Program-made: the position numbers and the translations under genes
NCBI RefSeq assembly: GCF_000725345.1
Contig: NZ_CP008852.1
Coordinates: 1,106,001-1,170,000 of the forward strand
Length of the DNA stretch: 64,000 nt
Source: Pelosinus sp. UFO1
GTDB lineage: Bacteria > Bacillota > Negativicutes > DSM-13327
Direction of reading: 5' to 3'
Shown: piece by piece, positions 16,053 through 60,660 of the stretch
Numbering within the stretch: position 1 is the stretch's first letter
How the letters are laid out: each line of letters opens with the position of its first letter
The notes under the pieces: model-generated
Told to the model about the DNA's origin: nothing
The model's input: the letters and a program-made list of their open reading frames with translations, nothing else
Database searches by the model: none

Positions 16053-16157
16053 TCTTCATCTCCCAGGAATACTCCTGTTGGAATTGGCACCGTTCGCAGT
16101 ATGCGGTGGTTGCCGTAGCTTCATCGGGCCAATCCCTCAGCTAACTCTTGATGAATA
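16053..16157 (-). promoter_or_regulatory. SAM-I (S-box) riboswitch
   Basis: Read on the minus strand, the leader contains ATCAAGAG, then GAGGGATTGGCCCGATGAAG, then CGGCAACC, the core consensus of the SAM-I aptamer. P1 is closed by TTCATC (16155-16150) with GATGAA (16060-16055). With the terminator that follows, S-adenosylmethionine would stop transcription of the aminotransferase. Confidence is high because all core blocks occur in order with correct spacing. Confidence 0.92.
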
Positions 16158-22801: not shown

Positions 22802-22975
22802 GCTAGAAGATAGAGGCGCGGTATATTAAGAATATGTATCTAGAGTAGCCAGCGATGAAAGATACAAAAAGGAATAACCGCCGAAGTGGAAGGGTTTGGC
22901 AAAGACCTTTTCGTTGGTTTTGTATTGAATAAATACAAGACTGTCATCCAATTTTGGGTGGAGTGCTATCTGCAT
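22802..22975 (+). promoter_or_regulatory. lysine riboswitch (L-box)
   Basis: Conserved L-box segments occur in order: GATAGAGGCGCGG, TTAAGAATA, AGTAGCC, GGAATAACCGCCGAAG, the GGGTTTGGCAAAGACC stem, ACAAGACTGTCATCC and GGTGGAGTGCTATC. P1 pairs GATAG with CTATC. A terminator at 23006 follows and then lysA, so lysine would switch off lysine synthesis by early termination. Confidence 0.92.
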
Positions 22976-23005
22976 AACTGATTATGAGATATGTTAGATT
23001 CTTAT

Positions 23006-30602: not shown

Positions 30603-30692
30603 AATCATGCAGCGTGGCGATCATAGATCTCTAAAAAAATCCGTAGACCCTATAGCTTTGCGTCCATACTTTTCAGTATGTTTGCTAATAAA
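30603..30692 (-). promoter_or_regulatory. c-di-GMP-I riboswitch (GEMM) before the HD-GYP gene
   Basis: On the minus strand the leader reads AGCAAACATACTGAAAAGTA, then TGGACGCAAAGC, then AGGGTCTACGG and ATGATCGCCACGC. These are the GEMM core blocks in order, with a GNRA-type tetraloop (GAAA) and the tetraloop receptor arm. A terminator follows at once and the controlled gene is a c-di-GMP phosphodiesterase, which supports the call. Confidence 0.88.
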
Positions 30693-30917
30693 AGTTTTTC
30701 TAAATAAAACTACCATACGTGAATGGTGTCAGTTTTAAAATAATAGCATATAATTATAGCAGATTATGTCATATACTGAAGAGTATATCAGAAATTGTTA
30801 GCAGATGGAATATCCAGACCTATTTTTCGAATCTTTTTTAGCGGTGGAATATTTTTTAGTGAAAAATCATAGTAGTAGAATAAGAGTGGGCGCTAATATC
30901 GTGGGAGGCGGCTAGAA
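30693..30917. other. divergent intergenic region between HD-GYP and MntR-like genes
   Basis: AT-rich, with a TATAAT on the minus strand at 30758-30753 that may serve the riboswitch leader; its -35 is poor. No further element is recognised on the plus-strand side apart from the ribosome site GGGAGGCGG before 30918. Confidence 0.4.
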
Positions 30918-33088: not shown

Positions 33089-33892
33089 ATGTTAAAAAAA
33101 GCTATTTTAGTAGTTAGTTTTGGTACAACCTATCAGGATGGAATGAAGTCAAGTATTGAAAGCATAGAAAATAAAATAAAATCTACTTTTCCTCAGTATG
33201 AAGTGCGAAGGGCCTTTACCTCCCGCATTGTTATCAAAAGATTAGCAAAGAGGGATGGCCTTGAAATTGATACGGAAAAAGAAGCATTGCAAAAGCTGCA
33301 GGAAGAAGGATACCAAGAAGTATATATTCAACCCTTGCATGTGGTAGTAGGAGAAGAATATGATAAGGTTAAAAGAATGGTTGCTCATTATGCCCACGCT
33401 GAAATATTCGAAAAGATTGCCCTTGGTCGCGCTCTTTTGTATTATACGGGACAAGAAGGCAAACCAGATGATTATCTAGAGGTAATAGACGCGATAAGAA
33501 CACAGCTTCCAAAGGTAAAAGAACAAGAAGCCGTTGTTTTTATGGGGCATGGTGGAGTACACCCTGGTAATACTGCTTATTCTACTTTGCAAATGAAACT
33601 GGAAGATGCCAATCTAGAACATGTGTATGTTTATACGGTGGAAGGTTTTCCCTCATTGGAGAGGGTTATAAAAAAATTAAAACAAAAGGATATCAAAAAA
33701 GTAACTTTGATGCCATTTATGCTTGTATCTGGCGATCACGTTGCAAATGATATGGCTAGTGATGAGGAAGATTCGGCGAAATCCCAGTTACTACAGGCTG
33801 GATTTGAAGTTGCTATTTATCTTCATGGTTTAGGAGAAAATTCAGGGATTCAGGATCTTTATGTTCAGCATTTAAAAGATATACTGAATTAA
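33089..33892 (+). CDS. cbiK: anaerobic sirohydrochlorin cobaltochelatase CbiK
   Basis: A 267-residue class II chelatase that inserts cobalt into sirohydrochlorin, the entry to anaerobic cobalamin synthesis. The start ILVVSFGTTYQDGMKSSIESIENKI and EVRRAFTSRIVIKRL are typical of CbiK. The metal-binding histidines are in QPLHVVVGEEYD and VVFMGHGGVHPGNTAYST; the C-terminal LMPFMLVSGDHVANDM is also conserved. There is no signal peptide, so it is cytoplasmic, unlike the periplasmic Desulfovibrio form. It precedes cobO and the large cobamide region. Confidence 0.93.
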   Translation: MLKKAILVVSFGTTYQDGMKSSIESIENKIKSTFPQYEVRRAFTSRIVIKRLAKRDGLEIDTEKEALQKLQEEGYQEVYIQPLHVVVGEEYDKVKRMVAHYAHAEIFEKIALGRALLYYTGQEGKPDDYLEVIDAIRTQLPKVKEQEAVVFMGHGGVHPGNTAYSTLQMKLEDANLEHVYVYTVEGFPSLERVIKKLKQKDIKKVTLMPFMLVSGDHVANDMASDEEDSAKSQLLQAGFEVAIYLHGLGENSGIQDLYVQHLKDILN

Positions 33893-33932: not shown

Positions 33933-34466
33933 ATGGAAAAAAGAGAAGGCCTAATTATTGTTCATACAGGGAATGGTAAGGGAAAGACTACGGCATCCTT
34001 AGGCCTGGGGTTAAGAGCCTGGGGACAGGGGTTTAAAGTATTAATATTGCAATTTATAAAAGGGAATTGGAAATATGGAGAGCTAAAGGCAGCAGACGCT
34101 TTGGGGTCCAACTTTGTAATGCGGCAAATGGGAGAAGGTTTTGTCCGAAATAGTACGGAAGATTCTTTGATAGATCATCGCCAGGCAGCCCAAGAGGCAT
34201 TACAAGTGGCTAGAAAAGAAATCGTATCCGAAGAATGGGATATGATTATCTTAGACGAAATTAATTATGCAATTAAGTTTGGTGTTCTCTCTTTAGAGTC
34301 TGTACTAGAAGTATTAGAAGTAAAGCCCGATTCACTACATCTTGTCTTAACAGGGCGGGAGGTTCGTGATGAAATTATTGCAAAAGCCGATTTAGTGACA
34401 GAGATGAAAGAAATTAAGCATCCTTATAAAAAAGGAATTAAGGCACAAAGAGGAATCGAATTTTAA
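33933..34466 (+). CDS. cobO: cob(I)alamin / cob(I)yrinate adenosyltransferase, CobA/CobO type
   Basis: A 177-residue adenosyltransferase with the P-loop VHTGNGKGKTTASLGLGLRAWG at the N-terminus, LQFIKGNWKYGE, WDMIILDEINYAI and LVLTGREVRDEIIAKADLVTEM, all features of CobA/BtuR/CobO. It transfers the adenosyl group of ATP to the reduced cobalt of corrinoids. It is 40 bases after cbiK, so the two are probably co-transcribed. It can serve both de novo synthesis and salvage of imported corrinoids. Confidence 0.93.
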   Translation: MEKREGLIIVHTGNGKGKTTASLGLGLRAWGQGFKVLILQFIKGNWKYGELKAADALGSNFVMRQMGEGFVRNSTEDSLIDHRQAAQEALQVARKEIVSEEWDMIILDEINYAIKFGVLSLESVLEVLEVKPDSLHLVLTGREVRDEIIAKADLVTEMKEIKHPYKKGIKAQRGIEF

Positions 34467-34517: not shown

Positions 34518-34549
34518 TGAATCTTGTAACATAGACAAATTTCATATGA

Positions 34550-34750
34550 ATGGTATAGGTGCCCTTCGGGGCTTAATAGGGAAGTTCGGTTCAAAGCCGG
34601 CGCGGTCCCGCCACTGTAATGAGGAGTGAACCCATGGTTATGCCACTGAGACGACAGTCTTGGGAAGGTATGGGCAAGCAATGATTCAGAGTCAGGAGAA
34701 CTGCCTATATAGCAATCACCGTTATAACCTGCGAGAGATGGGGAGGGGAT
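34550..34750 (+). promoter_or_regulatory. cobalamin (adenosylcobalamin) riboswitch 1
   Basis: The aptamer has GGTGCCC, AATAGGGAAG, GCCGGCGCGGTCCCGCCACTGTAA, TATGCCACTG, GGGAAGG and the B12 box GTCAGGAGAACTGCCTATAT. It lies in the leader of the nitrogenase-like and BtuB genes, so cobalamin would shut off the downstream uptake operon. It is very similar to riboswitch 2 (45503). Confidence 0.95.
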
Positions 34751-34806: not shown

Positions 34807-34831
34807 ATTACTATTTGCTTTATGCTATTGT

Positions 34832-34868
34832 AAAATCTCTTAGCCTTTTTAGGTTAGGAGATTTTTTT
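34832..34868 (+). terminator. cobalamin riboswitch 1 terminator
   Basis: AAATCTCTTAGCCT (34832-34845) pairs with AGGTTAGGAGATTT (34851-34864) and ends in a T run, ~40 bases before the nitrogenase-like gene. Confidence 0.8.
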
Positions 34869-34908
34869 ACGGCTATTTTTAGGAGCGATAAAAATAGGGG
34901 GATTGGAT

Positions 34909-36216
34909 ATGATTACGAGCCATTTGACCTACATGTGTCAGGAAAACAACAGTTGTGGATTGACAGGTGCAACTACTTTCTTTGCAGGTATTCCAGATGC
35001 TGTTATAGTAATTAACAGTCCTTTATGTTGTTACTTTTCAACCCAAGGGTATATTGAAAAACAATGCCCTACTGCTGGAAGACGATTTTTTTGCTCTCCA
35101 ATAAATGAAAATGCTGTACCCCTCGGTACAGAAAAATATCTACTAACTATTCTAGATTCAATAAAACAAAATTATCAGCCATCTATAGTGCTATTGGAGA
35201 ATAGCTGTACAAATATCACTAGTAATGATGACCTTTTGCAGATTGCTAAGCAAGCAAATATGAATTGTCCTGTTGTTTGTTTAGATAGTCACGATTTGCA
35301 TGAAGGTTTTTGGGCAGGATATCAGGCAGCTGCTAAGGCTTACTATCGTAATATGCCTCTTCGGTCCCGTAGTGTAGTAAAAACAAAAACAGTTAATTTA
35401 CTAGGATGTACTTTTGGATATTATAATGAATTTTATGATTTGCAAGAATTAAGACGTATGTTGACGTTAGCGGGTTATGAAGTATTAGCTTGTCCAGGAG
35501 CAGGAAGCACTACCCAGGAAATCGCAAATATGACCCAAGCACAACTGAATATCGTCGTGCATGACGAACTAGGAAGGGAGATAGCAGAGTTATTAGAAGA
35601 AGAGTACAATATCCCTTATGTCTCCCTATTACCTCCTTATGGTTTACGGGGTTCTTTAAATTGGTTAAAAGCGATTGATTATTATATGTCTGGAGAAAGT
35701 AATGGGCTAAAAACGCTTCATCAAGAAGCAAATCTTCTAGTACAAGGACTTAGTATTATTAGCAAAGATAAGCAAAAGCTTTGGGGAGATATATGGTTTG
35801 AAAATATAATCATTGCAGCTCCGTCTTCAGTAGCTTTTGGTATATCTCAGGCAGTACGTAATGAATGGGTAGATACCAAAGAAATCATAACTGTATTGCA
35901 TAATGGAGTTCCTTTCAAACAGAGTTATCCTGATTATATTGGTATCGTATTAGATGGATATAAAGACCAACAGAAAATTGAGCAACATTTAGCAGGTCTA
36001 GCAGGAGGATTGCTTATGGCGAGTAGTAAAGAGAAAGCGATTTTGCATCAAAAAGCAGTTGAAAATATAGAATATCAGCATATCTCCTTACCCCTTTATG
36101 ATGAAATGATACTTAAAAATCGCCCTCTTATGGGACTACGGGGTACTAGTCATATGGTAGAAGGGTTTTGGAATAAACATATATCGCTAAAGAAAGCGTG
36201 GTTACTTAGTAAGTAA
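34909..36216 (+). CDS. orphan nitrogenase component 1-like protein in cobamide operon
   Basis: A 435-residue protein of the nitrogenase component 1 superfamily (NifD/NifE/BchN/CfbD relatives). ATG 34909 fits AGGGGG; the TTG at 34903 is too close to it. Three cysteine regions line up with the P-cluster ligands of NifD: NNSCGLTGATTFFAGIPDAV (C16), INSPLCCYFS (C40/C41) and LLENSCTNITSNDD (C100). The second half keeps the family blocks NIVVHDELGREIAELLEEEY and PYVSLLPPYGLRGSLNWL. No NifH-type ATPase, NifK-type partner or nif gene is in the window. It is the first gene after a cobalamin riboswitch, before the corrinoid receptor, so it may act on a corrinoid or related tetrapyrrole; its real reaction is unknown. 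Confidence 0.8.
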   Translation: MITSHLTYMCQENNSCGLTGATTFFAGIPDAVIVINSPLCCYFSTQGYIEKQCPTAGRRFFCSPINENAVPLGTEKYLLTILDSIKQNYQPSIVLLENSCTNITSNDDLLQIAKQANMNCPVVCLDSHDLHEGFWAGYQAAAKAYYRNMPLRSRSVVKTKTVNLLGCTFGYYNEFYDLQELRRMLTLAGYEVLACPGAGSTTQEIANMTQAQLNIVVHDELGREIAELLEEEYNIPYVSLLPPYGLRGSLNWLKAIDYYMSGESNGLKTLHQEANLLVQGLSIISKDKQKLWGDIWFENIIIAAPSSVAFGISQAVRNEWVDTKEIITVLHNGVPFKQSYPDYIGIVLDGYKDQQKIEQHLAGLAGGLLMASSKEKAILHQKAVENIEYQHISLPLYDEMILKNRPLMGLRGTSHMVEGFWNKHISLKKAWLLSK

Positions 36217-36308: not shown

Positions 36309-38207
36309 GTGAAGCAGATAAAGGCCAAGCTATGTGCCTGTGTGTTAAGTAGTGCCCTATTACTACAAATGCAAAATGTGTATGCAAATGAAAGTGAGGA
36401 ATATTCCTTTGATCAAATGGTGGTGACAGCCAATCGGGTACCTACAAAAATAACAGAAACAGCTGCTAATGTAACAGTAATTACGAAAGAGGAAATTGAA
36501 GAAGGTAACTATCATAATATCGGAGAAGTGCTACAACATATACCAGGAATTTCTATAGGGTCTAATGGTGCTCCAGGCAGCATCAGTGCTGCATTTATTA
36601 ATGGAAGTGAACAAGTTGTGGTGATGATTGACGGTAGGCGCATGAATTTGCCCAATGGCATAGGTGGACTTGGTATGGCTACTACCAATTTAACTAGTTT
36701 GATCGGCATAGAGAACATTGAACGTATTGAAATAGTAAAAGGGGGTAGATCTGCTTTATATGGTGCAGATGCTGTTGGCGGTGTAATTAATATCATTACT
36801 AAAAAAGGTGAAAAAAATCAGACAGCAGTAACAGTAGCAGGAGGTAACTGGGATAGTAAGAATTACACCCTGGTTAACGAGGGTAAAAAAGATAACCTGA
36901 GTTGGTTCTTTACTGCTGATAAAAAACAAATAAGTGATTATTCAGATGGGAATAACAAAACATATAGGTATACGGGTATTGATCAAGAAGCCTATACATT
37001 GCGGTTAGACCAAAAAGTGAATAATGGCAATTTAAGTTTTTCATATGAAAACTTTCATCATGAAAATGAAGGGAAAGCAGCTAATAAATATGAAAATACC
37101 AATCAGCATAATTGGGACTTTACCTATACGGAAGATACCTCTACAAATACAGATTACCAAATTAAATTTTATCAAAATGCTAACCATCGTTTTGGCTTAG
37201 GTAATAATACTTCGGATCGATATGATCATGACGTTAGCACGAAAGGTTTCAACTATCAGGTAAATTCTAAAATAAATGAGAAAAATTCGTTAACGACTGG
37301 AATTGATTGGCGAAAAGACGAGATTGAAAGTAGTGAGTATGGTAGTAAAGATAGCACCGTAAAAGCGATTTATTTACAGGATAAATGGAATATAACGGAT
37401 AAGTTTAGTATTATTCCCGGGATTCGTTATGATAATAGTGATATATACGGAAATAAAACAACCCCACAGCTAGGGGCAAATTATAAACAAAATGAGCGCA
37501 CTACTTATTATGCGTCGTGGGGTAAAGTGTTCCAAACACCACGTTTTGATGATTTATACTGGCCATCATCAGTTGATCCTGCAAATGCGTATTATCCAGG
37601 TTCACCAGAGACCCATTATGATGGTAACCCTAATTTAAAACCGGAAACTGGGTGGAATGCCGAAATTGGAGTGAATCATAAATTTGATAATACATTAGAA
37701 GGAAATTTCTCAGTTTTTACTCGTAGGCTAAATGATGCGATTGCTTGGAAAAATGTTAGTACAAATTCTGCAATAGAATATTGGACTCCTTCTAATGTTG
37801 ATAAGCAAAAAGCCGATGGTTTTGAAATGCAGTTGACTAAGAGACTTACTGCTGAATTAAAAACATTCATTGGCTATAACTATTTGCGTGTTAGGAATAA
37901 AACACAATATGATAGTAATTTTGTCAGAGACAAAAATATACCAGATGAAACATGGAATATTGGCATGTCTTATGGATCTAACAAAATAAATGCTGATATA
38001 AAAGGCACGGCTGTTATGGGAAGAACCAATAGCCAATTTATAGAAAAAAGTTACTGGTTATGGGATGCGAATGTTAATTTAAAACTAGATAAGAATAATA
38101 CCGCTTTTTTAACCGTAAATAACATACTCGATAAATATTATGATACTACTGCTGGTAAGCCTTGTAGCGGACGTAATTACTTGATTGGATTAAAAACGAT
38201 ATTTTAG
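36309..38207 (+). CDS. btuB: BtuB-like TonB-dependent corrinoid receptor
   Basis: A 632-residue outer-membrane receptor. A signal peptide ends after NVYANES, then comes a TonB box (DQMVVTANRVP), a plug domain (NIGEVLQHIPGISIGSNGAPG, IERIEIVKGGRSALYGADAVGGVINIITKK) and a ~22-strand beta-barrel ending in the aromatic IGLKTIF typical of barrel C-termini. The start is GTG after AGGAGGG. The cobalamin riboswitch upstream and the Btu transport genes downstream indicate cobamide or cobinamide as cargo. It proves that the host has an outer membrane. Confidence 0.9.
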   Translation: MKQIKAKLCACVLSSALLLQMQNVYANESEEYSFDQMVVTANRVPTKITETAANVTVITKEEIEEGNYHNIGEVLQHIPGISIGSNGAPGSISAAFINGSEQVVVMIDGRRMNLPNGIGGLGMATTNLTSLIGIENIERIEIVKGGRSALYGADAVGGVINIITKKGEKNQTAVTVAGGNWDSKNYTLVNEGKKDNLSWFFTADKKQISDYSDGNNKTYRYTGIDQEAYTLRLDQKVNNGNLSFSYENFHHENEGKAANKYENTNQHNWDFTYTEDTSTNTDYQIKFYQNANHRFGLGNNTSDRYDHDVSTKGFNYQVNSKINEKNSLTTGIDWRKDEIESSEYGSKDSTVKAIYLQDKWNITDKFSIIPGIRYDNSDIYGNKTTPQLGANYKQNERTTYYASWGKVFQTPRFDDLYWPSSVDPANAYYPGSPETHYDGNPNLKPETGWNAEIGVNHKFDNTLEGNFSVFTRRLNDAIAWKNVSTNSAIEYWTPSNVDKQKADGFEMQLTKRLTAELKTFIGYNYLRVRNKTQYDSNFVRDKNIPDETWNIGMSYGSNKINADIKGTAVMGRTNSQFIEKSYWLWDANVNLKLDKNNTAFLTVNNILDKYYDTTAGKPCSGRNYLIGLKTIF

Positions 38208-38345: not shown

Positions 38346-39338
38346 ATGTTAAAACTTGTGAATCTATCTAACTGTGCATCGGATTTGGAGCTTATTCATA
38401 ATAGTCCAGAATGTTTACGAGCATTCTTGAATCAGCATCATTTAGATGGGCTGGAAATGATGTTTTGTGATTCTTGGGATTCACGCGTCCATAAAAAGGA
38501 GTGGATCCAAGGAGTACATCTACGTTTTTGGCCCAATTGGCTGGATTTTTGGCATGGTAACAGACAAGAATTACTTAGGCAATTTGGCAGTGACGATCAA
38601 ATTGAAGCTTGTTATGGTGCTTTGAATCCCGCTGGGTGGTTGAATGTATACCGAGATAATATTCGTAAAGCAAAAATGGCAGGAGCCAAATACCTTGTGT
38701 TTCATGTCAGTCAGGCGCGGATTCCAGAATTGTTTAATTGGCAGTTTAACTATTCAGATCAAGAAGTTATTGAGGCTACCCTTGAGGTAGTGAATCAATT
38801 GGTTGAAGATATACCGCCTGATATGGAATTGTTATTTGAAAATTTATGGTGGCCAGGGTTAACATTGCAAAATAAAGAACTTACTGCTTTGTTACTGAAT
38901 AAAGTGAAGCATTCCAAAGTTGGTATTATGCTAGATGTTGGGCATTTAATGAATACCAATCCAGAATTAAAGAGCCAAGATGAGGGGATAGACTATGTAC
39001 TTAAAATTATTGAATCATTAGGTCAATATAAAAATTACATTTACGGTATACATCTACATCATTCTTTATCAGGTGAATACATAAAGCAAAGTAGAGGTAT
39101 AGCCGTACCACAGAAAAATATTTTGGCAAGAGCAATGAGTCATGTACTTAAAATTGATGAGCATCTACCATTTACGTCTCCAGCAGTCAATCGGATTCTT
39201 GAATTAGTACAACCTCGATATGTGGTGCATGAATTTATGTATACATCCATTGCAGATTGGTCAAGAAAAGTTACTACGCAACAGCAAGCAGTGCGATATT
39301 TAGGAGATTTAACAAATGAAAAAAATGTTTATCGTTAG
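38346..39338 (+). CDS. cbiR: TIM-barrel AP-endonuclease-2 family protein, probable CbiR cobamide-remodelling enzyme
   Basis: A 330-residue protein of the xylose-isomerase-like TIM-barrel (AP endonuclease 2) superfamily. Putative metal ligands fall on successive strands: GVHL, VFHVS, LLFENLWW, MLDVGHLMN and GIHLHHS, then VVHEF near the C-terminus. CbiR, described from Akkermansia, belongs to this superfamily and hydrolyses the nucleotide loop of cobamides so that the lower ligand can be replaced. Here the gene lies between btuB and btuF, overlapping btuF by 23 bases, under a cobalamin riboswitch, which is the context expected for CbiR. The identification is inference from fold and context; a sugar-phosphate isomerase is the alternative. 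Confidence 0.62.
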   Translation: MLKLVNLSNCASDLELIHNSPECLRAFLNQHHLDGLEMMFCDSWDSRVHKKEWIQGVHLRFWPNWLDFWHGNRQELLRQFGSDDQIEACYGALNPAGWLNVYRDNIRKAKMAGAKYLVFHVSQARIPELFNWQFNYSDQEVIEATLEVVNQLVEDIPPDMELLFENLWWPGLTLQNKELTALLLNKVKHSKVGIMLDVGHLMNTNPELKSQDEGIDYVLKIIESLGQYKNYIYGIHLHHSLSGEYIKQSRGIAVPQKNILARAMSHVLKIDEHLPFTSPAVNRILELVQPRYVVHEFMYTSIADWSRKVTTQQQAVRYLGDLTNEKNVYR

Positions 39339-40266
39339 TTTGCTAGTCAGTTATACTCTCCTATTGATAACTGGTTGTGCATCTCATTCACAATCTAATA
39401 AATCTACAGTAGGGTATGAAGTACAAGACTCACAAGGTTACATCGTGAAACTTCCCAACAAACCTATCCGTATCGCCTCTCTGTCTTTAGGAGCAGATGA
39501 AATAATAGTAGGGTTAGTTTCTATGGAACGTATTTTGGCTTTGACATATTTAGCAGATGATCCAGGTATATCCAATGTAGCGGAGCAAGCCAAGTTAGTA
39601 CCCAACAAGGTAAAAGCTAACCCAGAGACCATAATTGCCTTAGAACCTGATTTACTATTTATCGCGGATTGGCAGCCGGTAGAATTGATTCAGATCCTTC
39701 GAGAAGCCGGGATTCCGGTGTATGTCTATAAAACACCGAAGACGATTGCTGATGTAAAACTTGTAATTTATGAAATAGCACATGCTGTTGGCGAAGAAAA
39801 AAGGGGCCAAGAAATGGTGGCTCAAATGGAGCAACAATTATTGATGGTCCAAAAGTCCCTGGAAAAGGTTAGCAGAGCAGAAGGAAAGACGGTGGTACTG
39901 TTTTCTTTAATGGGGGGGATTGGTGGGAAAGGAAGTTTATTTGATGATATATGTCAGTATGCTGGTGTCATAAACGGAGCCAGCAAAGTAGGAGTTGGCA
40001 AAAATGAGATTATGTCAAAAGAACAAATTGTTAAAGCCAATCCTGACGTTCTGATTATGCCCATGTGGGATTACTCAGGAAAAATAGATATAAATCAATT
40101 CAAATCTGAGATACAAGCTGATCCAGCATTTCAAACCCTTACAGCGATTAGGCAACAGCAATTAGTTATGATCCCCGATCGCCACTTATCCTGTACTTCC
40201 CAATACATAGTGCAAGGAGTAGTGGATGTTGCGAAGGCGGCTTATCCGCAAGATGGCAATCTATGA
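39316..40266 (+). CDS. btuF: BtuF-like corrinoid-binding lipoprotein
   Basis: A 316-residue class III substrate-binding lipoprotein. The signal peptide ends in the lipobox LITGC. The domain pattern is that of BtuF/FhuD/FecB proteins: QGYIVKLPNKPIRIASLSLGADEIIVGL in outline, LEPDLLFIADWQP in the first lobe, a long helix, then ANPDVLIMPMWDYSG in the second lobe. It binds corrinoid in the periplasm and passes it to BtuCD. The start overlaps cbiR and its stop overlaps btuC (ATGA), showing tight coupling. Confidence 0.88.
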   Translation: MKKMFIVSLLVSYTLLLITGCASHSQSNKSTVGYEVQDSQGYIVKLPNKPIRIASLSLGADEIIVGLVSMERILALTYLADDPGISNVAEQAKLVPNKVKANPETIIALEPDLLFIADWQPVELIQILREAGIPVYVYKTPKTIADVKLVIYEIAHAVGEEKRGQEMVAQMEQQLLMVQKSLEKVSRAEGKTVVLFSLMGGIGGKGSLFDDICQYAGVINGASKVGVGKNEIMSKEQIVKANPDVLIMPMWDYSGKIDINQFKSEIQADPAFQTLTAIRQQQLVMIPDRHLSCTSQYIVQGVVDVAKAAYPQDGNL

Positions 40267-41326
40267 GAGAGGAAGGGATTAGGACGCAAAATAATCGAGG
40301 GAAGAAGGCTAAGAATAGAATAATAGTAATGAGTATCTTATTACTAGGTGTTATGTTATTTTCTATTTCCTGGGGAACCATGCAAATTCCTTGGAACGAG
40401 ACATTGCTAATTATAGCAGGGCATATTCCTTTTGGGGGGCTGCAGCTTCCCGTTGCTGATTCTGAATATCAGGCTGTAGTGTGGCAGATTCGGTTGCCTC
40501 GTGTTTTGGTAGGTATGTTGGTAGGAGCTGCTTTAAGTACTTCAGGGGCCGTGATGCAAGGTATATTTGGCAATCCTCTGGCTGATCCTGGCATCATCGG
40601 TGTTTCGAGTGGCGCTGCGTTTGGTGCTGTCGTAGCAATTTCACTTGGTCTTACGTCAAACAGTATATTTATCACGCCAATTTTTGCTTTGGTAGGAGCA
40701 ATTTTGGCAGTTAGTTTAACTGTTTTTTTATCCATGTTACGAGGAAAAATTCCAGTGATGACCTTATTATTATCAGGTGTGGCTGTTAGTATGTTGATGG
40801 GAGCTTTCACATCTGGCATCTTGACTTTGATGAATGAATCTCGTGTACGGGAATATTTATTTTGGATGGTAGGGGGGCTGGATTATCGCAGGTGGGAACA
40901 TGTTTATTTAGCGGTTGGCCCGATCTGTAGTGGTTTAGTTATTTTATGTTTGTTAGCTAGACATCTCAATGTTTTGGCATTAGGCGAGCAGGAAGCCAAA
41001 TCTGTAGGTGTACCTGTAGTTGCTTTGCGAATGTTGTTATTATTCGTTGCTGCATTTACTACGGCCATTGCCGTGTGTGTAAGCGGTACTATTGGATTTG
41101 TAGGTTTAATTGTACCTCATATTATGCGAATTATGGTTGGGCCAGAACACCGCTGGTTGCTTCCATGTAGTGCAATAGGAGGGGCTTTGTTTTTAGTGTT
41201 TTGTGATACTTTAGGGCGAATGATTTTTCCGCCTAATGAAATTCGTGTAGGTATTATGACGGCTTTACTAGGGGCACCCTACTTTTTATATTTGCTGCGA
41301 AAGGCGCAGCAAACTGGAGGCGCTTC

Positions 41327-41330
<4 letters not shown>
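40263..41330 (+). CDS. btuC: BtuC-like ABC transporter permease (FecCD family)
   Basis: A 355-residue permease of the FecCD/BtuC family with about ten helices. Signature blocks are WQIRLPRVLVGMLVGAALSTSGAVMQGIFGNPLADPGIIGVSSGAAFGA in outline and SGTIGFVGLIVPHIMRIMVGPEHRWLLP, the region that contacts the ATPase. It overlaps btuF upstream and btuD downstream by four bases each. It carries corrinoid across the inner membrane. Confidence 0.92.
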
Positions 41331-42593
<1,263 letters not shown>

Positions 42594-42637: not shown

Positions 42638-43282
42638 ATGGATTTTTTGTCACAATGTATGTCTTTATTTGCTAAAGGTGGTCCAGTCATGTATGTGATT
42701 GTAGGATGTTCTTTAGCTGTAGTAGCGATTGGTGTGGAACGATTTTTCTATTATAAACAGATGTCTACGGACTCCCAAGCATTTATTGAAAAACTAAAAC
42801 CTTTATTGGAACAAGAAAAATTAGCAGAAGCACAGCATTTGTGCGGACAAACGACAGCTGTGATTGGAATTTTAGGGGCAGAAGGATTACTAGCATATCA
42901 AAAAGAGAGTAATATAGAAAAGGCCATGGATGGTACAGCGGCATTGTTAGCAGCTAGATTACGAGAATATTTAAATTATCTAAGCTCTATTGTTACCTTA
43001 TCTCCTTTATTAGGCTTGTTAGGAACTGTCATTGGTATGATTAATTCTTTTAGTATTTTCAATGTAAAAAATGGGCAGCCCATGGCGATTACAGGAGGAG
43101 TAGGTGAAGCCTTAGTTGCAACGGCCACTGGATTAATTGTAGCCATTATGGCGTTAGTCGTGCACAGCTATTTTACCCATCGTTTGGATAAATTGGTTAC
43201 GGATATGGAACAAGTCTATACAATAGTGATAACTCGACTTTATATAAAAGAAACTCGGAGGAAAAGTCATGAAATTGCGTAG
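42638..43282 (+). CDS. exbB: ExbB/TolQ-family proton channel subunit
   Basis: A 214-residue MotA/TolQ/ExbB-type inner-membrane protein with three helices. An N-terminal helix (GGPVMYVIVGCSLAVVAIGVERFF) is followed by a cytoplasmic domain and the paired helices with SPLLGLLGTVIGMINSF and GGVGEALVATATGLIVAIMALVVHSYF, the family signature. With ExbD and TonB it energises the outer-membrane receptor. GGGAGAG sets the start; it overlaps exbD by 14 bases. Confidence 0.93.
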   Translation: MDFLSQCMSLFAKGGPVMYVIVGCSLAVVAIGVERFFYYKQMSTDSQAFIEKLKPLLEQEKLAEAQHLCGQTTAVIGILGAEGLLAYQKESNIEKAMDGTAALLAARLREYLNYLSSIVTLSPLLGLLGTVIGMINSFSIFNVKNGQPMAITGGVGEALVATATGLIVAIMALVVHSYFTHRLDKLVTDMEQVYTIVITRLYIKETRRKSHEIA

Positions 43283-43679
43283 TTTACGCATTGAAAATCA
43301 ACCAGCATTAATGATTATTCCGATGATTGATATTATCTTTTTTTTATTAGTTTTTTTTATGATGAGTACCTTATATATGGTGGAGCAACATACCATTCCA
43401 ATCAACTTGCCGCAAGCTACTGCGGTTCAACAAGAAATAACGAAAAATAGTAACATTACAGTTTTAAAAGATGGCAGAGTCATGTTTGAGCAGGAGGAAA
43501 TCCCACTCTCATTATTACAAAAACGTATTAATGCAGAGCTAGCAAAACAACCTGATATTCTATTTGTAGTGCGGGCAGACAAGCAAGGGCAGTATGGTCA
43601 GGTGGTGGCAGTGTTAGATGAACTAAAATTGTCTGGGGCACGTAGAGTGGCTGTGGCTACTGATCAGAAAGGAAAATAG
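43269..43679 (+). CDS. exbD: ExbD/TolR-family protein
   Basis: A 136-residue single-span protein. The N-terminal membrane helix carries the conserved aspartate in MIIPMIDIIFFLLVFFMM, which takes part in the proton path. The periplasmic domain follows (ITVLKDGRVMFEQEEIP, DILFVVRADKQGQYGQVVAVLDELKLSGARRVAVAT). It partners ExbB and TonB in the same operon. Confidence 0.93.
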   Translation: MKLRSLRIENQPALMIIPMIDIIFFLLVFFMMSTLYMVEQHTIPINLPQATAVQQEITKNSNITVLKDGRVMFEQEEIPLSLLQKRINAELAKQPDILFVVRADKQGQYGQVVAVLDELKLSGARRVAVATDQKGK

Positions 43680-43684
43680 AAGAT

Positions 43685-44431
43685 ATGATCCGACCACGTT
43701 TGCGTAAATCAATTGTCATTTCTGTGATTTTTCATATATTGCTTTTGGGTATCGTAGGTTTGCTGGCAGGTAGATTTTTTCCATTGATGGATTCCGAAAC
43801 CTACATTGAATTAGAATTACTAACAGATACAGTGGCAGAAGGAGCACAATCGAATGAATCATCACCAGTTGCAAAGAATACGCCCCAAACTGCTGCTTAT
43901 CCTGAAACCACAACCGTTATAAAGAGTACTACTGCCTTATCAGTTGCTCCTAAAGCAGTGGCTGTGACAGAAGACTTAGCGGTAGTGGCGGTTGAAGCGG
44001 CATCCACATTTCAATCTATGAGTGACAATGGGCAAGGAAGCAACTCTTCGAATACAAGTACAACTGATGGAGGTACTGGGAATGGATCAGGAAAGGGGAC
44101 TGCTGGCAATAGCGGAGGCGGGAATGGCAATTCTGGTAGTAATTCAGGAAATAAGCAGATCACTAGGCCAAGCATTTTATCCAAGGTAGATCCTGATTAT
44201 CCTGAAACAGCGCGAACAGCAGGTTTAGAAGGTACGGTTCTCGTGAAGATACAAATATTAGCGAATGGTTTGGCTGGAGACATAACCGTGAATCATTCAT
44301 CAGGGCATGGTATTTTAGATGAGGCAGCAATAGTAGCAGTTCGTCAATGGCGATTTATACCTGCCAAAAATCAGGAGAATGTCAGTATTATGTGTTACAC
44401 GACAATGCCTATTTCCTTCCGGTTGAAGTAG
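43685..44431 (+). CDS. tonB: TonB energy transducer
   Basis: A 248-residue TonB: a membrane anchor (SIVISVIFHILLLGIVGLLAG), a long low-complexity linker of Ser, Asn, Gly and Thr (about residues 115-155), and the C-terminal TonB domain (DPDYPETARTAGLEGTVLVKIQILANG in outline, ending AIVAVRQWRFIPAK). The linker is Gly/Ser/Asn-rich rather than the usual Pro/Glu/Lys-rich. It links the ExbBD motor to the BtuB-like receptor and closes the riboswitch 1 operon. Confidence 0.92.
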   Translation: MIRPRLRKSIVISVIFHILLLGIVGLLAGRFFPLMDSETYIELELLTDTVAEGAQSNESSPVAKNTPQTAAYPETTTVIKSTTALSVAPKAVAVTEDLAVVAVEAASTFQSMSDNGQGSNSSNTSTTDGGTGNGSGKGTAGNSGGGNGNSGSNSGNKQITRPSILSKVDPDYPETARTAGLEGTVLVKIQILANGLAGDITVNHSSGHGILDEAAIVAVRQWRFIPAKNQENVSIMCYTTMPISFRLK

Positions 44432-45469: not shown

Positions 45470-45502
45470 TATTACTAAGAGAACAGTGAAAACTAAATAT
45501 TG

Positions 45503-45705
45503 ACGGTATAGGTGCCCTTGTGGGCTTAATAGGGAAGTCGGTTTAAATCCGGCGCGGTCCCGCCACTGTAATGAGGAGCGAATCCACAGTTATGCCACTG
45601 AAAATGATTTTTCGGGAAGGTGTGGATAAGTAATGATTCAAAGCCAGGAGAACTGCCTATATAGCAATCGCCGTTATAACCTGCGAGAGATGGGGAGGAG
45701 ATTAG
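45503..45705 (+). promoter_or_regulatory. cobalamin (adenosylcobalamin) riboswitch 2
   Basis: The same blocks as riboswitch 1: GGTGCCC, AATAGGGAAG, CCGGCGCGGTCCCGCCACTG, TATGCCACTG, GGGAAGG and the B12 box GCCAGGAGAACTGCCTATAT. Long stretches of 20 or more bases are identical between the two, suggesting duplication. It controls cbiL and the second Btu set. Confidence 0.95.
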
Positions 45706-45786
45706 TACAATTGTACTGAATGCGAGATCAAAATGCCCTTGGCAACGATTTTTCATGATTACAGAGTTCTATAATTGTATTTATTG

Positions 45787-45821
45787 AAATCTTCCAGCTA
45801 ATGTAACGGAAGGTTTTTTTG
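45787..45821 (+). terminator. cobalamin riboswitch 2 terminator
   Basis: AAATCTTCC (45787-45795) pairs with GGAAGGTTT (45808-45816) followed by TTTTG, ~50 bases before cbiL. Confidence 0.75.
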
Positions 45822-45869
45822 TTGTTACAAGATATTTAACATACTACAAATCATGCTGAGGAGGACGTT

Positions 45870-46577
45870 ATGTCAGGAATTTTTTATGGTGTTGGTGTAG
45901 GACCAGGGGATCCCCAATTACTTACATTAAAGGCAGTAGAAGTAATTAAAAATGCGGATGTTGTTATTGCTCCTAAAACGGAGAAAAAAGAAGACAGCAC
46001 GGCGCTATCCATTGCTCGTCCCTATTTGAAAGCTGATGTTGAGATATTAAAGTTGGTTTTCCCAATGGTAAGCAATACTGATACTTTGGCAGATGCATGG
46101 GAAAATAATAAAAATAGTATATTAAAAGAACTGCAAGCAGGGAAAAAGGTTGTATTTTTAACATTGGGGGATCCAATGTTTTATAGTACATATATGTATG
46201 TTTATCGTTTATTAAAGGACTGTGGACACGGGATCGAAACCATACCAGGTGTTCCTGCTTTTTGTGCCATAGGCAGTCAGCTAGGACAACCTTTAGCAGA
46301 GGGCAATGATGTAATTAGCATTATTCCTGCTACAATGGCAGAGGGAGAAATGGATAAAGTATTAGCTATTTCTGATAATGTTGTATTGATGAAAGTATAT
46401 AAGAACTTCGGAAAAGTAGTAGAAAAACTGGAACAGTATGGTTTTGGTGATAATGCGGTTATGATTAGCAAATGTGGTTTGCCTGATGAACAGGTAAGCT
46501 ATAATTTAAGCGAAGTTGATGGAACAAACGTTAATTATTTGACGACAATTTTGGCAAAGAAACGCAAACTTGGCTAG
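45870..46577 (+). CDS. cbiL: cobalt-factor II / precorrin-2 C20-methyltransferase CbiL
   Basis: A 235-residue SAM-dependent tetrapyrrole methylase. Motifs are the N-terminal GVGVGPGDPQLLTLKAVEVIKNADVV, VVFLTLGDPMFYSTYMYVYRLL and ETIPGVPAFCAIGSQLGQPLAEG, and CGLPDEQV near the C-terminus, which match the CobI/CbiL subgroup. It methylates C20 of cobalt-factor II in the anaerobic route, consistent with CbiK at 33 kb. AGGAGG sets the start. It is the first gene after riboswitch 2; other cbi genes are not in this window. Confidence 0.9.
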   Translation: MSGIFYGVGVGPGDPQLLTLKAVEVIKNADVVIAPKTEKKEDSTALSIARPYLKADVEILKLVFPMVSNTDTLADAWENNKNSILKELQAGKKVVFLTLGDPMFYSTYMYVYRLLKDCGHGIETIPGVPAFCAIGSQLGQPLAEGNDVISIIPATMAEGEMDKVLAISDNVVLMKVYKNFGKVVEKLEQYGFGDNAVMISKCGLPDEQVSYNLSEVDGTNVNYLTTILAKKRKLG

Positions 46578-46612
46578 GCCTTATATGGAATTATAAAAAA
46601 GGGATGAATGAT

Positions 46613-46652
46613 TTCGCCGGATAGCTTTATCCGGCCTTTCCCATTTTTTATG
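46613..46652 (+). terminator. hairpin between cbiL and btuF2
   Basis: GCCGGATA and TATCCGGC form a tight stem followed by CTTTCCCATTTTTT. It may be a partial terminator or attenuator inside the operon. Confidence 0.5.
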
Positions 46653-46670
46653 TATGAAAGGGGAATTGTT

Positions 46671-47639
46671 GTGAAAGGGAAATTTGCTTATTTGATTTGT
46701 ATACTTAGTGTAATGGGGCTGCTTTTTACAGGGTGTGCTTCTCAATCTCAAGATAAGGCAATAACAAAATCATCTGGTGATTATTTGCAAATGACAGATG
46801 ATGCGGGACGTTTAGTGGTACTCCCCAAAAAGCCACAACGCATAGTCGTATTATCTACTTCTTATTTAGATGTGTTATACGGTATCGGCGGCAAGGCAGT
46901 AGGACGGCCTAGCTCGAAGACACCTCAAACCTTTCCCGCATCGCAAGACCTTCCGGAAGTAGGGTTCGTCTATAATGTAAATAGTGAGCAAGTGTTAGCA
47001 TTGCAACCTGATTTAGTAATTGGTTTTCAAGGAATTCATGATAAATTGGTTCCTATATTGGAAAGCAGTAAGATTCCTGTTATGATTCTGAAAATGAAAA
47101 CCTATGATGATATTTTAGCAAAGGTAAAACTATTTGGTGATATAGCTGGTACTCAAGAACAGGCTCAGAGTCTTCTTACTGAAATGCAGACAAAAATCAA
47201 TGGAGTAACAGCCAAACTGCCAGCACAAAGTAAAAGAGTAGTGATATTACATGCGACGGCGAAAAATGTTACAGTAGAGTTAGAAAATACAATTGCTGGT
47301 AATGTGGCGAACATTTTAAAAATCAAAAACATTGCCGCAGACAGTACCCCTATGGTTGGTGATGGCGAGGTGACTCCTTATAGTTTAGAAAAATTGGTGG
47401 AAGGCGATGCAGATATTATCTTGGTGGTAACCATGGGGAATATGACAGAAATTGAAAAAAGAATGAAAGCAGATATTGAAAGTAATCCAGCCTGGAACGG
47501 TTTACGAGCAGTAAAGACAGGAAAGGTATTTTTTCTGCCAGGGGAATTATTTCAACTAAATCCTGGTATTCGTTTTCATGAATCTGTTGAATATATGGCC
47601 AAAGTAGTATATCCAGAGGTTTATGGCAATGTTAAATAG
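46671..47639 (+). CDS. second BtuF-like substrate-binding lipoprotein
   Basis: A 322-residue class III binding protein. The start is GTG 46671, after GAAAGGGGA; the longer open frame begins within a hairpin and lacks a signal peptide at its N-terminus. The lipobox is LFTGC. Domain blocks are GRLVVLPKKPQRIVVLSTSYLDVLYGIGG in outline and LQPDLVIGF, with DADIILVVTMGN in the second lobe. It may bind cobalamin, cobinamide or an iron-siderophore; riboswitch 2 upstream favours a corrinoid. It overlaps the permease gene by 17 bases. Confidence 0.85.
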   Translation: MKGKFAYLICILSVMGLLFTGCASQSQDKAITKSSGDYLQMTDDAGRLVVLPKKPQRIVVLSTSYLDVLYGIGGKAVGRPSSKTPQTFPASQDLPEVGFVYNVNSEQVLALQPDLVIGFQGIHDKLVPILESSKIPVMILKMKTYDDILAKVKLFGDIAGTQEQAQSLLTEMQTKINGVTAKLPAQSKRVVILHATAKNVTVELENTIAGNVANILKIKNIAADSTPMVGDGEVTPYSLEKLVEGDADIILVVTMGNMTEIEKRMKADIESNPAWNGLRAVKTGKVFFLPGELFQLNPGIRFHESVEYMAKVVYPEVYGNVK

Positions 47640-48645
47640 AAACAATCTCTTTAATACTATGCTTGGTGACCGGAGTCAATGGCGAGTTTTTATTATCCTA
47701 GTATTCGCAGTTTGTGCTTTTGGTGGCATCCTGCTCAGTTTACGTGTTGGATCCTTATCGATAAGTGTCAATGATATTGTATCAGCCATTTTTTCGGATA
47801 ATTCAGGGGCTAATCGTCAAGTAATTTGGAATATTCGATTGCCTCGGACTTTAGTGGGGGCCTTGGTGGGGGTTAATTTGTCCTTAGCGGGGGCAATTCT
47901 TCAAGGTGTCATGAAAAACCCTTTAGCGGACCCTCATATTATTGGAGTGTCTTCGGGGGCGGGATTAGCTGGTGTAAGCATTATGGTACTGTTTCCCCAT
48001 AAGGAATATTTAGTGACGCCTGTTGCTTTTATGGGAGCGATGGTGGCCGCTGTTTTTATCTATATATTAGCGTGGAAAGGTGGCATTCGCCCTGTACGCA
48101 TTATCTTAGCTGGGGTGGCTGTATCAGCCTTTTTAAATTCTGCTATTTCTGCCTTATTGGTTTTCTATAGTGATCGGGTTCATGGGGCATTGATGTGGAT
48201 GGTAGGGGGCCTATCAGCTCGTAGTTGGCCTCACTTAGATATTATATTGCCTTATACGATTATTGGTGGCATCTTAGCTATATTGGGAGCAAGACGACTA
48301 AATATATTAAACTTAGGGGACGAGATTGCCAGAGGGCTAGGGCTAAATGTGGAAGCTTCTAGAATCGCTATGACAGCAGTGGCAGCCTTATTAGCAGCGA
48401 GTGCTGTTAGTGTGGTAGGCTTACTTGGTTTTGTCGGACTTATCGTACCGCACGCGGCGAGGTTATTAGTGGGTTCTGATTATCGTTATTTATTACCTGC
48501 CTCCGCTTTACTAGGTGTAGCAGTTGTTACCTTAAGTGATACCTTGGCAAGAGTTGCATTCTCCCCAATTGAAATTCCCGTAGGAATCATTATGGCCTTT
48601 ATAGGCGCGCCCTTTTTTCTCTACTTATTAAGGAGGGATGCCTAA
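47623..48645 (+). CDS. second BtuC-like ABC permease
   Basis: A 340-residue FecCD/BtuC permease with about ten helices: IRLPRTLVGALVGVNLSLAGAILQGVMKNPLADPHIIGVSSGAGLAG in outline, and GLLGFVGLIVPHAARLLVGSDYRYLLPASALLG near the C-terminus. It is homologous to the permease at 40263, but clearly diverged. Its start lies inside the binding-protein gene, and its stop overlaps the ATPase gene as TAATG. Confidence 0.92.
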   Translation: MAMLNRNNLFNTMLGDRSQWRVFIILVFAVCAFGGILLSLRVGSLSISVNDIVSAIFSDNSGANRQVIWNIRLPRTLVGALVGVNLSLAGAILQGVMKNPLADPHIIGVSSGAGLAGVSIMVLFPHKEYLVTPVAFMGAMVAAVFIYILAWKGGIRPVRIILAGVAVSAFLNSAISALLVFYSDRVHGALMWMVGGLSARSWPHLDIILPYTIIGGILAILGARRLNILNLGDEIARGLGLNVEASRIAMTAVAALLAASAVSVVGLLGFVGLIVPHAARLLVGSDYRYLLPASALLGVAVVTLSDTLARVAFSPIEIPVGIIMAFIGAPFFLYLLRRDA

Positions 48646-49436
48646 TGACCTTCATGAAAGGAGAGGGGCTATCTGTAAGTTTCGGTGATGAAATAGTGTT
48701 GAAAAATCTTTCAGTAGAAATAGAAGAAGGGAAGATTATTGCTATTTTAGGTCCGAATGGTTCAGGGAAAAGCACCTTACTTAAAGTTTTATCTCGGAAT
48801 ATAAAACCGAATAAGGGTAGTGTATATCTAGATGATAAGAATTTAGTGCAGTTTAGTGGGAAAACCCTTGCTCAAAAAATGGCTGTATTGCCTCAATCGC
48901 CCCAGGCACCTAGTGATTTAACAGTGAGGGATTTAGTAGAATTTGGACGTTTTCCTCACCAAAGTTGGTGGCAAGGTAAATCAAAACAAGATGATGATTG
49001 TGTAGGTTGGGCCTTGCGGCAAACAGGCCTTATCCAGATGGCCGATCGAGTGGTTAGTACCCTGTCTGGCGGTGAACGGCAAAGGGTTTGGATTGCGATG
49101 GCTTTGGCCCAAAAACCTGAGATTTTGCTTTTGGATGAGCCAACCACCTACCTTGATATTTGTCATCAGTTAGAAATAATGGAACTGTTAGCTAACTTTA
49201 ATAATGAGCAACATCTTACAGTAGTGATGGTGTTGCATGACATTAATCATGCAGCTCGATATTCGGATTATGTTGTTGTTGTGCAAGATGGACAGGTTTT
49301 TGCTGCAGGTAGTCCTCGGGAAGTCATTACAGAACATACTTTACGAGAAGTTTTTGGTGTTGAGAGTGAGGTTATTCTCGATAAGGCAGGAAAGCCAGTA
49401 GTCATCATTCAGGGATTAACCTGTAAGATAGGCTAA
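48645..49436 (+). CDS. second BtuD-like ABC ATPase
   Basis: A 263-residue ATPase of the iron/cobalamin importer class with Walker A GPNGSGKST, signature LSGGERQR, Walker B ILLLDEPTTYLD and LHDINHAARYSD with the switch histidine. It is of normal length and lacks the C-terminal domain of the BtuD at 41327. It completes the second binding protein-permease-ATPase set of the riboswitch 2 operon. Confidence 0.92.
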   Translation: MTFMKGEGLSVSFGDEIVLKNLSVEIEEGKIIAILGPNGSGKSTLLKVLSRNIKPNKGSVYLDDKNLVQFSGKTLAQKMAVLPQSPQAPSDLTVRDLVEFGRFPHQSWWQGKSKQDDDCVGWALRQTGLIQMADRVVSTLSGGERQRVWIAMALAQKPEILLLDEPTTYLDICHQLEIMELLANFNNEQHLTVVMVLHDINHAARYSDYVVVVQDGQVFAAGSPREVITEHTLREVFGVESEVILDKAGKPVVIIQGLTCKIG

Positions 49437-49464
49437 GATTTGATGATAAGTAGGGGATAGTAAA

Positions 49465-60475: not shown

Positions 60476-60573
60476 ATCTCAATCAGTCTTGTAGTTGGAA
60501 AATTATATACGCAACTTATGGAAGATTATCTTTGCAGGAAATTGACAAAAAATGGCGAAGTTAATTACCAAAG

Positions 60574-60660
60574 TTAAATATGGCAAACCTACCGAAAGAT
60601 AGGGACGCAAAGCCATGGGTCTAAAGATAGTAAGTAATCTAAGATTGCCAGGTTGCTCAA
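60574..60660 (+). promoter_or_regulatory. c-di-GMP-I riboswitch (GEMM) before the chemoreceptor
   Basis: Core blocks in order: ATATGGCAAACCTACCGAAA, AGGGACGCAAAGCCATGGGTCT and ATTGCCAGGTTGCTC. The GAAA tetraloop and GCAAAGCC receptor are plain. The 3' part of the aptamer overlaps the left arm of the terminator, so c-di-GMP binding should oppose termination or the reverse. Confidence 0.92.

Follow-up and report, generated by a model that had tools for sequence, protein, structure and literature searches.

To our knowledge, nitrogenase relatives whose function has been established use N2, methylated sulfur compounds, a sulfonate or, in the chlorophyll and F430 pathways, porphyrin-type rings as their substrates. 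Chlorophyll synthesis employs BchHID together with BchLNB and F430 synthesis employs CfbA together with CfbCD; in both, a chelatase stands beside a NifH-driven reductase. DPOR (BchL-BchN-BchB) combines a NifH-type ATPase with two component-1 subunits. CfbC/CfbD, the Ni-sirohydrochlorin a,c-diamide reductive cyclase of the F430 pathway, is a tetrapyrrole reductase with a NifH-type partner, and CfbD is described as a homodimer (PMC12176620). Group IV, with the methylthio-alkane reductase MarHDK, comprises NifHDK-like gene sets; group IV-A MarHDK-like genes have been reported near corrinoid methyltransferase clusters, a related but distinct case (PMC10418091). Among chelatase relatives, the CobN-related HmuS is able to remove metal from a tetrapyrrole and takes iron out of heme in gut commensals (PMC12583661); the word "nitrogenase" is absent from the main text of that paper and of a paper on CobN and ChlD (PMC9227772). 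Our searches of open-licence papers found no nitrogenase-like gene tied to cobamide salvage.

The window analysed here is a stretch of 64,000 nucleotides from the genome of Pelosinus sp. UFO1. It holds the following run of forward-strand features, in which a nitrogenase component 1-type protein, P0001, is the first gene behind a cobalamin riboswitch:

33089-33892, + strand: CbiK cobalt chelatase (PF06180), 5' of the riboswitch
33933-34466, + strand: CobA adenosyltransferase (PF02572), 5' of the riboswitch
34540-34722, + strand: cobalamin riboswitch aptamer RF00174 (Rfam 106.3 bits, gathering 31.5; 208.8 bits with model R1, which was built from 20 sequences including this one)
34832-34867, + strand: hairpin with a 15-bp stem and a U tract, likely intrinsic terminator of the expression platform
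34909-36216, + strand: solo N1b, nitrogenase component 1-type protein P0001 (PF00148, E 7.8e-45)
36309-38207, + strand: TonB-dependent outer-membrane receptor, BtuB-like (PF00593, PF07715; TIGR01779)
38346-39338, + strand: AP endonuclease 2 superfamily protein (AP_endonuc_2, PF01261, 36.1 bits), CbiR-like, putative cobamide remodelling
39316-40266, + strand: periplasmic binding protein (Peripla_BP_2, PF01497), BtuF-like
40263-41330, + strand: FecCD permease (PF01032), BtuC-like; best NCBIfam model BtuC, below cut-off
41327-42562, + strand: ABC ATPase (PF00005) with a C-terminal extension, BtuD-like; best NCBIfam model PRK09536 (corrinoid ABC transporter ATPase), below cut-off
42638-43282, 43269-43679 and 43685-44431, + strand: open reading frames of the same run, with homologous runs in the neighbourhood maps, which we take to be ExbB, ExbD and TonB-like genes

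The initial annotation of this DNA had placed a gene of the nitrogenase component 1 superfamily at 34909-36216, behind a B12 riboswitch and ahead of BtuB, CbiR-like and Btu genes. The reading frame is real, running from the ATG at 34909 to the stop codon at 36216 and encoding 435 aa, and the Rfam match and the gene models agree with the described order. A GGGGG run a few bases 5' of the ATG could act as a ribosome-binding site. The aptamer lies on the same strand, 187 nt before the ATG, and the region 34820-34880 in between folds with -21.9 kcal/mol. The terminator consensus scan has no entry for this hairpin; together with its U's and its place between aptamer and start codon it looks like a terminator-type switch, so that corrinoid binding would probably halt transcription. 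The TonB-dependent receptor scores 203 bits with the NCBIfam TonB-B12 model (TIGR01779) and 181 bits with the TonB-hemin model, both under cut-off, and no B12-specific model is among the NCBIfam matches of the BtuF-like protein. CbiR has been described as a clade of the AP endonuclease 2 superfamily with genes beside cobamide genes (PMC7733943). Elsewhere in the window, a second cobalamin riboswitch was noted in the region 45493-46577 / 46608-51044, followed by a methyltransferase-like reading frame, presumably of the CbiL type, and another BtuF/FecCD/ATPase set. The window also has a lysine riboswitch (22803-22976), a SAM riboswitch (16053-16157) and two c-di-GMP-I riboswitches (60572-60660, 30605-30696).

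PF00148 is the sole Pfam domain of P0001 and covers residues 16-419 with 153.9 bits against a gathering threshold of 28.6. Thirteen NCBIfam models matched the protein and none passed: the best, the NifE equivalog, gave 83.3 of the 505.1 bits needed, followed among others by BchB (79.2 of 490.4), NifD (40 of 653.6), CfbD TIGR03282 (24.3 of 268.4) and BchN (20.9 of 420). When sequence profiles alone are compared, NifE, NifD and BchB come out about equal. An AF2 model computed from 40 sequences (pLDDT 87.5, pTM 0.89, residues 1-14 of low confidence) has the component-1 fold. A PDB search with it gave 139 matches (E<=0.001), and the 50 listed among them are all nitrogenase, NifEN, DPOR or methylthio-alkane reductase chains. 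The nearest solved fold among the matches listed is BchB of DPOR (8vqh_B, Z 38.5, rmsd 2.9 over 411 residues, 17% identity), followed by methylthio-alkane reductase (Z 36.7) and by nitrogenases and NifEN (Z about 30-33). DPOR binds a tetrapyrrole, so the predicted fold would agree with a tetrapyrrole substrate, short of proof.

Relatives of P0001 were found in 8 of 10 genomes of the family and 4 of 398 genomes sampled across the phylum (E<=1e-20), only one of the latter outside the class and at 24% identity; 81 of the 380 genomes of the class carry an orthologue (E<=1e-30). The named carriers include Pelosinus, Sporomusa (S. ovata), Anaerospora, Phascolarctobacterium, Succiniclasticum, Selenomonas, Schwartzia and Dialister. 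A scan of genome contigs with P0001 as a single protein found no relative; the closer alignment A3 as query gave 48 named loci. Two records carry labels at odds with this distribution: an N1b 52% identical to P0001 sits on a 48-kb contig (L134) recorded as Pelotomaculum propionicicum, presumably a member of another class, by transfer or contamination, and a metagenome-assembled genome labelled Acholeplasmataceae (G029, L175) carries the cluster although the genome set places it in the class, so that its label is probably wrong.

The set read closely comprises 56 loci (the window and 55 others) with 58 genes orthologous to P0001, here called N1b, from 28 genera. In 50 of the 58, N1b stands directly behind a second component-1 gene, N1a, and in 39 the order is NifH-N1a-N1b with nifH first; N1b is solo in eight. 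The initial annotation had regarded P0001 as an orphan protein. Because 39 of the 58 orthologues follow a NifH of their own clade and a second component-1 subunit, and because 10 of these 39 operons have a cobalamin riboswitch before nifH, that description has to be given up: judged by its orthologues, P0001 belongs to a B12-regulated NifH-type system, as its N1b subunit, and not to an orphan family. One clade NifH narrowly misses the thresholds of both the NifH and the CfbC model (CfbC 370.5 against 402 bits). Cysteine regions had also been proposed at C16, C40/41 and C100, and these positions are right in so far as C16 is kept in 56, C41 in 58 and C100 in 55 of the 58 N1b proteins. C40 is not conserved; position 40 is Trp in 43 of 43 paired N1b proteins, so that C41, not C40, is the ligand-like residue. 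N1a has three conserved cysteines of its own, kept in 49, 49 and 50 of 50 proteins.

In a quick tree with NifD, NifK, NifE, NifN, Vnf, long-branched BchN and BchB and 13 of the 16 paralogues of the host genome, but no CfbD or Mar rows, N1a and N1b each lie on one side of a fully supported branch, N1b (SH-aLRT 100) apart from NifD and NifE. The P0001 clade thus falls outside the NifD/K/E/N and BchN/B rows, the placement on which the initial annotation had made its proposal of a separate role depend. A place for P0001 within the genome's own nitrogenase or nitrogenase-like clusters was considered and rejected: the 13 PF00148 paralogues in the tree fall in other clades, and the tree leaves out the remaining three, because two are truncated by a locus end or lie close to one and BLAST did not recover the third. 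G081 (L095), G035 (L098), G060 (L097) and G277 (L093) carry a second, diverged lineage of N1a-N1b pairs. No NifH precedes these pairs, and L095 alone shows one at another place in the stretch read.

The neighbourhood of the relatives was surveyed by BLAST (E<=1e-20) in the stretches read. CobN occurs in 28 of 56 loci (20 genera), ChlI in 17, ChlD in 23, CbiZ in 20 (17 genera), CbiR in 20 (11 genera), a BtuF-like protein in 38, a radical SAM protein in 15 and a carbon-nitrogen hydrolase in 7; the neighbourhood maps add a CobA cluster in 11 loci. Orthologues unlinked to cobamide genes had been named as evidence against a role in cobamide metabolism, and the linkage is borne out in most: riboswitch, CbiZ, CbiR or CbiK is present in 36 of 56 loci and 22 of 28 genera, and the other 20 loci, 8 of them with CobN, have no cobamide-specific mark in the stretch read. 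The archetype of a full cluster (L065 of G078) reads CobN, permease, ATPase, radical SAM, riboswitch, then NifH-N1a-N1b-CbiR-BtuF-hydrolase-CbiZ-ChlI-ChlD-ExbB-ExbD-TonB. Genome-wide, CobN is found in 71 of 81 genomes with N1b against 46 of 299 others, and CbiZ in 55 of 81 against 54 of 299, counts that are inflated by genome kinship. At least 48 genomes have CobN <=15 kb from N1b, and at least 42 have CbiZ <=25 kb from it. Ten N1b genomes have no CobN: G000 (the window genome), G003, G006 and G008 of Pelosinus, G091 and G093 of the genus g39, and G272, G328, G329 and G376. In the Pelosinus genomes G004, G005 and G009 it is present, not beside N1b.

Counting riboswitches <=400 nt before the first gene, a cobalamin riboswitch precedes nifH by 74-367 nt in 10 of 39 NifH-first operons from 8 genera and 7 families (L057, L058, L059, L061, L062, L064, L065, L068, L072, L083). 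Several of the counted loci had contributed to the 20 riboswitches behind model R1; the ten cases were therefore checked with Rfam, which confirms all ten. The other 29 operons have none within 400 nt, although three have one at about 1-1.7 kb, and two loci (L056, L067) start at a contig end, so that any riboswitch would lie outside the sequence. Among 80 genomes, at least 0 to at least 27 cobalamin riboswitches were counted per genome; with 27 in 5 Mb, the chance of one lying <=400 nt before a given gene is estimated at about 1 in a thousand.

Several riboswitch-rich or unusual regions were noted alongside. At L058:4131-7784 of Sporomusa ovata (G298), NifH-N1a-N1b with its riboswitch is immediately followed by genes for a 4Fe-4S protein, a protein resembling 2-hydroxyglutaryl-CoA dehydratase (HGD-D) and a BcrAD/BadFG ATPase, so that the run possibly includes another type of ATP-driven low-potential reductase; the same locus has a fragment of CobN at 12631-13416. 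At least 14 and at least 10 cobalamin riboswitches surround two CobN genes each in G303:C1 (about 696000-786000) and G298:C4 (about 470000-617000). A ZMP/ZTP riboswitch, probably belonging to the next gene, stands shortly 3' of N1b at L046, L047 and L075 in two Schwartzia (g61) genomes.

The eight solo genes are those of six Pelosinus loci (the window and L051-L055) and two loci of a second genus, g39 (L091, L092); among the loci read, the solo state was seen in these two genera. A riboswitch stands 187-191 nt before the gene in 6 of the 8, and a scan of six further Pelosinus orthologues found a cobalamin riboswitch ahead of each. The g39 order is TonR-CbiR-BtuF-FecCD-ATPase-N1b-ExbB, with a riboswitch some 6.5 kb upstream. 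As the initial annotation had stated, the window contains no partner: among the 17 PF00148 loci and four full-length NifH matches of the host genome, only P0001 lies inside it. Its suggestion to look for a NifH elsewhere in the genome succeeded in part, in that NifH genes exist and none is dedicated; the best NifH of the solo-genus genomes is <=57% identical to that of the clade, compared with 76-79% in four relatives. No dedicated NifH was found in the eight Pelosinus genomes (five 100% complete, three 83-89%) or in both g39 genomes (G091, G093). That the partner had merely moved was likewise rejected, because in the window genome no component-1 protein exceeds 31% identity to N1a, with only part of N1a aligned, and the best NifH reaches 57%, so that no dedicated copy of either partner is found there. 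Among its NifH proteins are nif-type ones, 57% and 53% identical to that of the clade, which might serve. Two Pelosinus genomes, G006 and G009, carry an additional N1a-N1b pair; in G007 (89% complete) P0001 has no match at E<=1e-20, the frame being intact in 7 of 8 Pelosinus genomes.

The solo proteins differ from the paired ones in a particular part of the sequence. Conservation was taken from 43 paired rows of the 58, after removal of five diverged (L093, L095, L096, L097, L098), eight solo and two paired Pelosinus rows. At 71 conserved positions the Pelosinus solo proteins show 10-12 departures, those of g39 show 23 and the two paired Pelosinus copies one each; paired rows have 2.3 on average and at most 9. 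Departures in any of the six Pelosinus solo rows affect 14 of 29 conserved columns up to residue 135 and 2 of 42 beyond it, and columns changed in all six rows number 6 of 29 and 0 of 42; for g39 the figures are 19 of 29 and 3 of 42. Paired rows average 0.9 departures in the N-terminal and 1.4 in the remaining part (at most 3 and 7). In this alignment, changes at conserved positions cluster, in both solo genera, in the cysteine-bearing N-terminal third. All six Pelosinus solo rows, P0001 included, retain the three cysteines C16, C41 and C100, whereas g39 has lost C16 and C100. Behind C100, within the LIGDD stretch (104-108), positions 104-106 are changed in all six Pelosinus solo rows, as are G37 and G129, and positions 107, 108 and 132 are changed in some; P0001 itself keeps D107 and D108. 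The equivalent stretch of NifD presumably faces and docks the Fe protein. Between P0001 (reference G000) and five Pelosinus orthologues, dN/dS is about 0.09-0.20 (dN 0.15-0.18, dS 0.9-1.6), and by this measure the Pelosinus solo N1b is under purifying selection. A tree on the C-terminal columns parts the two solo groups; a topology that joins them is weakly rejected (p-AU 0.037), and g39 sits on a long stem. The solo state likely arose twice, in Pelosinus and in g39.

Compared with the described systems, NifH-N1a-N1b resembles DPOR in architecture, in a class I chelatase near the genes (CobN/BchH family, seen in L125) and in the fold of P0001. It differs in that P0001 scores far below the BchB cut-off, the tree sets N1a and N1b apart from the long-branched BchN and BchB, the N1b loci show cobamide genes and riboswitches with no chlorophyll genes seen, N1a and N1b each have three conserved cysteines, and the solo form has neither a dedicated NifH nor a second subunit. 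CfbC/CfbD is similar through the CfbC score of one clade NifH and the homodimeric state, which P0001 may share; in contrast, P0001 falls far short of the CfbD model (24 of 268 bits), is bacterial with adjoining B12 genes and derives from a form with two different subunits. The cysteine pattern and the N-terminal half recall NifE and NifD, yet the best of these scores is 83 of 505 bits and N1b forms its own branch with support 100. Likeness to group IV lies in the gene sets and the fold (Z 36.7), while the genome's own clusters at 2.96-3.02 Mb, which we take to be group IV-like, form clades separate from N1b, joined with Treponema saccharophilum genes. These clusters (G000:C1:2958001-3030000, L107-L110) comprise 10 component-1 and two NifH genes in several groups with ABC ATPases nearby; 8 of the 10 are in the tree and group with genes of the T. 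saccharophilum plasmid pTS2. CobN/HmuS with ChlI and ChlD are neighbours in many three-gene clusters, an arrangement that parallels the chelatase and NifH-driven reductase of chlorophyll and F430 synthesis, although the Pelosinus window genome has no CobN.

P0001 seems to be a subunit of an undescribed B12-regulated, ATP-driven enzyme that was kept alone after partner loss. The sequences themselves give its descent, the gene order, the riboswitch, the missing partner, the places of change, the selection and the predicted fold, whereas its cluster, substrate, oligomeric state and exact task we infer as follows. P0001 descends from the N1b subunit of a NifH-N1a-N1b two-component system, which in several Negativicutes genera is under cobalamin riboswitch control and is encoded along with corrinoid uptake, with remodelling by CbiR and CbiZ and with the CobN-ChlI-ChlD chelatase. 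In this complex, ATP-gated electrons from NifH would probably have passed through a cluster held by three cysteines per subunit and reduced a tetrapyrrole, most likely a corrinoid, at the ring or at the cobalt. Corrinoid is the likeliest substrate given the riboswitch and the many neighbours of cobamide salvage, and expression under B12 shortage would speak for its salvage or activation and against its destruction. Pelosinus has lost the dedicated NifH and retained N1b at the head of the B12-uptake operon. P0001 would now most likely be a homo-oligomeric corrinoid-binding carrier or redox mediator with its NifH docking gone, a role preferred because a dedicated ATP-driven partner is absent, the partner-facing part is changed and the rest is kept. 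Reduction, delivery or remodelling of a corrinoid, as put forward by the initial annotation, is likewise inferred. That P0001 is a stand-alone corrinoid-handling protein of this kind, derived from a NifH-N1a-N1b corrinoid reductase, is our leading but tentative reading, to which we give a little less than an even chance.

The retention of C16, C41, C100, D107 and D108 would be easier to understand if Fe-S binding or docking had survived than if P0001 were simply a carrier, and on this ground P0001 could still be catalytic: a CfbD-like homodimer with an Fe-S cluster on the three cysteines, driven by another NifH and reducing the corrinoid ring, or Co(II) to Co(I) for CobA. The four full-length NifH matches in the genome, the best 57% identical to the dedicated NifH, could supply the electrons, cobA and cbiK lie just 5' of the riboswitch, and a homodimer has its precedent in CfbD as described (PMC12176620). 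Against this, residues 104-106, G37 and G129 are changed in six of six Pelosinus solo rows and 107, 108 and 132 in some, the paired Pelosinus copies keep LIGDD with one departure each of 71 although they too have no adjacent NifH, and the second solo lineage has lost C16 and C100; we regard continued catalysis as unlikely, if the most serious of the alternatives. Less probable still is a heme or other porphyrin substrate for the clade; CobN would then remove iron in the manner of HmuS, and the link to B12 would be secondary. Another tetrapyrrole could be the substrate, since 20 of 56 loci have no cobamide-specific mark in the stretch read (8 of these with CobN) and 29 of 39 NifH-first operons no riboswitch within 400 nt; CobN in 28 of 56 loci, the removal of iron from heme that is reported for HmuS (PMC12583661) and the 181-bit TonB-hemin match of the window receptor point the same way. 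They have to be set against cobalamin riboswitches shortly before nifH in 8 genera, the cobamide-acting CbiZ and CbiR in 20 loci each, permease and ATPase models that are best for B12, though below cut-off, and the lack of CobN in the window genome.

The place of P0001 at the head of an uptake operon, kept alone with a changed N-terminal part, would also suit a sensor or regulator that binds imported corrinoid and signals to the operon or the transporter; with PF00148 as its only Pfam domain, and a riboswitch that already senses B12, we consider this improbable. The idea of a functionless, decaying remnant of a lost three-gene enzyme could draw on the loss of the dedicated NifH, the changes at conserved positions and the missing match in the 89%-complete G007, but it is largely refuted by a dN/dS of about 0.09-0.20; the frame is intact in 7 of 8 Pelosinus genomes, and the six N-terminal columns changed in all six solo rows are not a random pattern, which leaves it a very slight chance. 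The corrinoid-handling reading is the one we carry forward.

For the family as a whole we propose, slightly more tentatively than the role of P0001, that NifH-N1a-N1b may be the first nitrogenase-family enzyme to act on B12-type corrinoids, ATP-driven and altering the ring or cobalt together with CobN-ChlI-ChlD during salvage under B12 shortage, and that Pelosinus and one other genus each freed one subunit into a stand-alone corrinoid handler. If this is true, vitamin B12 would join the substrates of nitrogenase relatives, and the testable claim would be that anaerobes of gut and soil salvage cobamides through an energy-costly, so far undescribed step. The solo proteins would then offer a natural experiment on what a nitrogenase-like subunit retains once its ATP-driven partner is gone, and P0001 may point to a further step in the handling of vitamin B12 by anaerobic bacteria.
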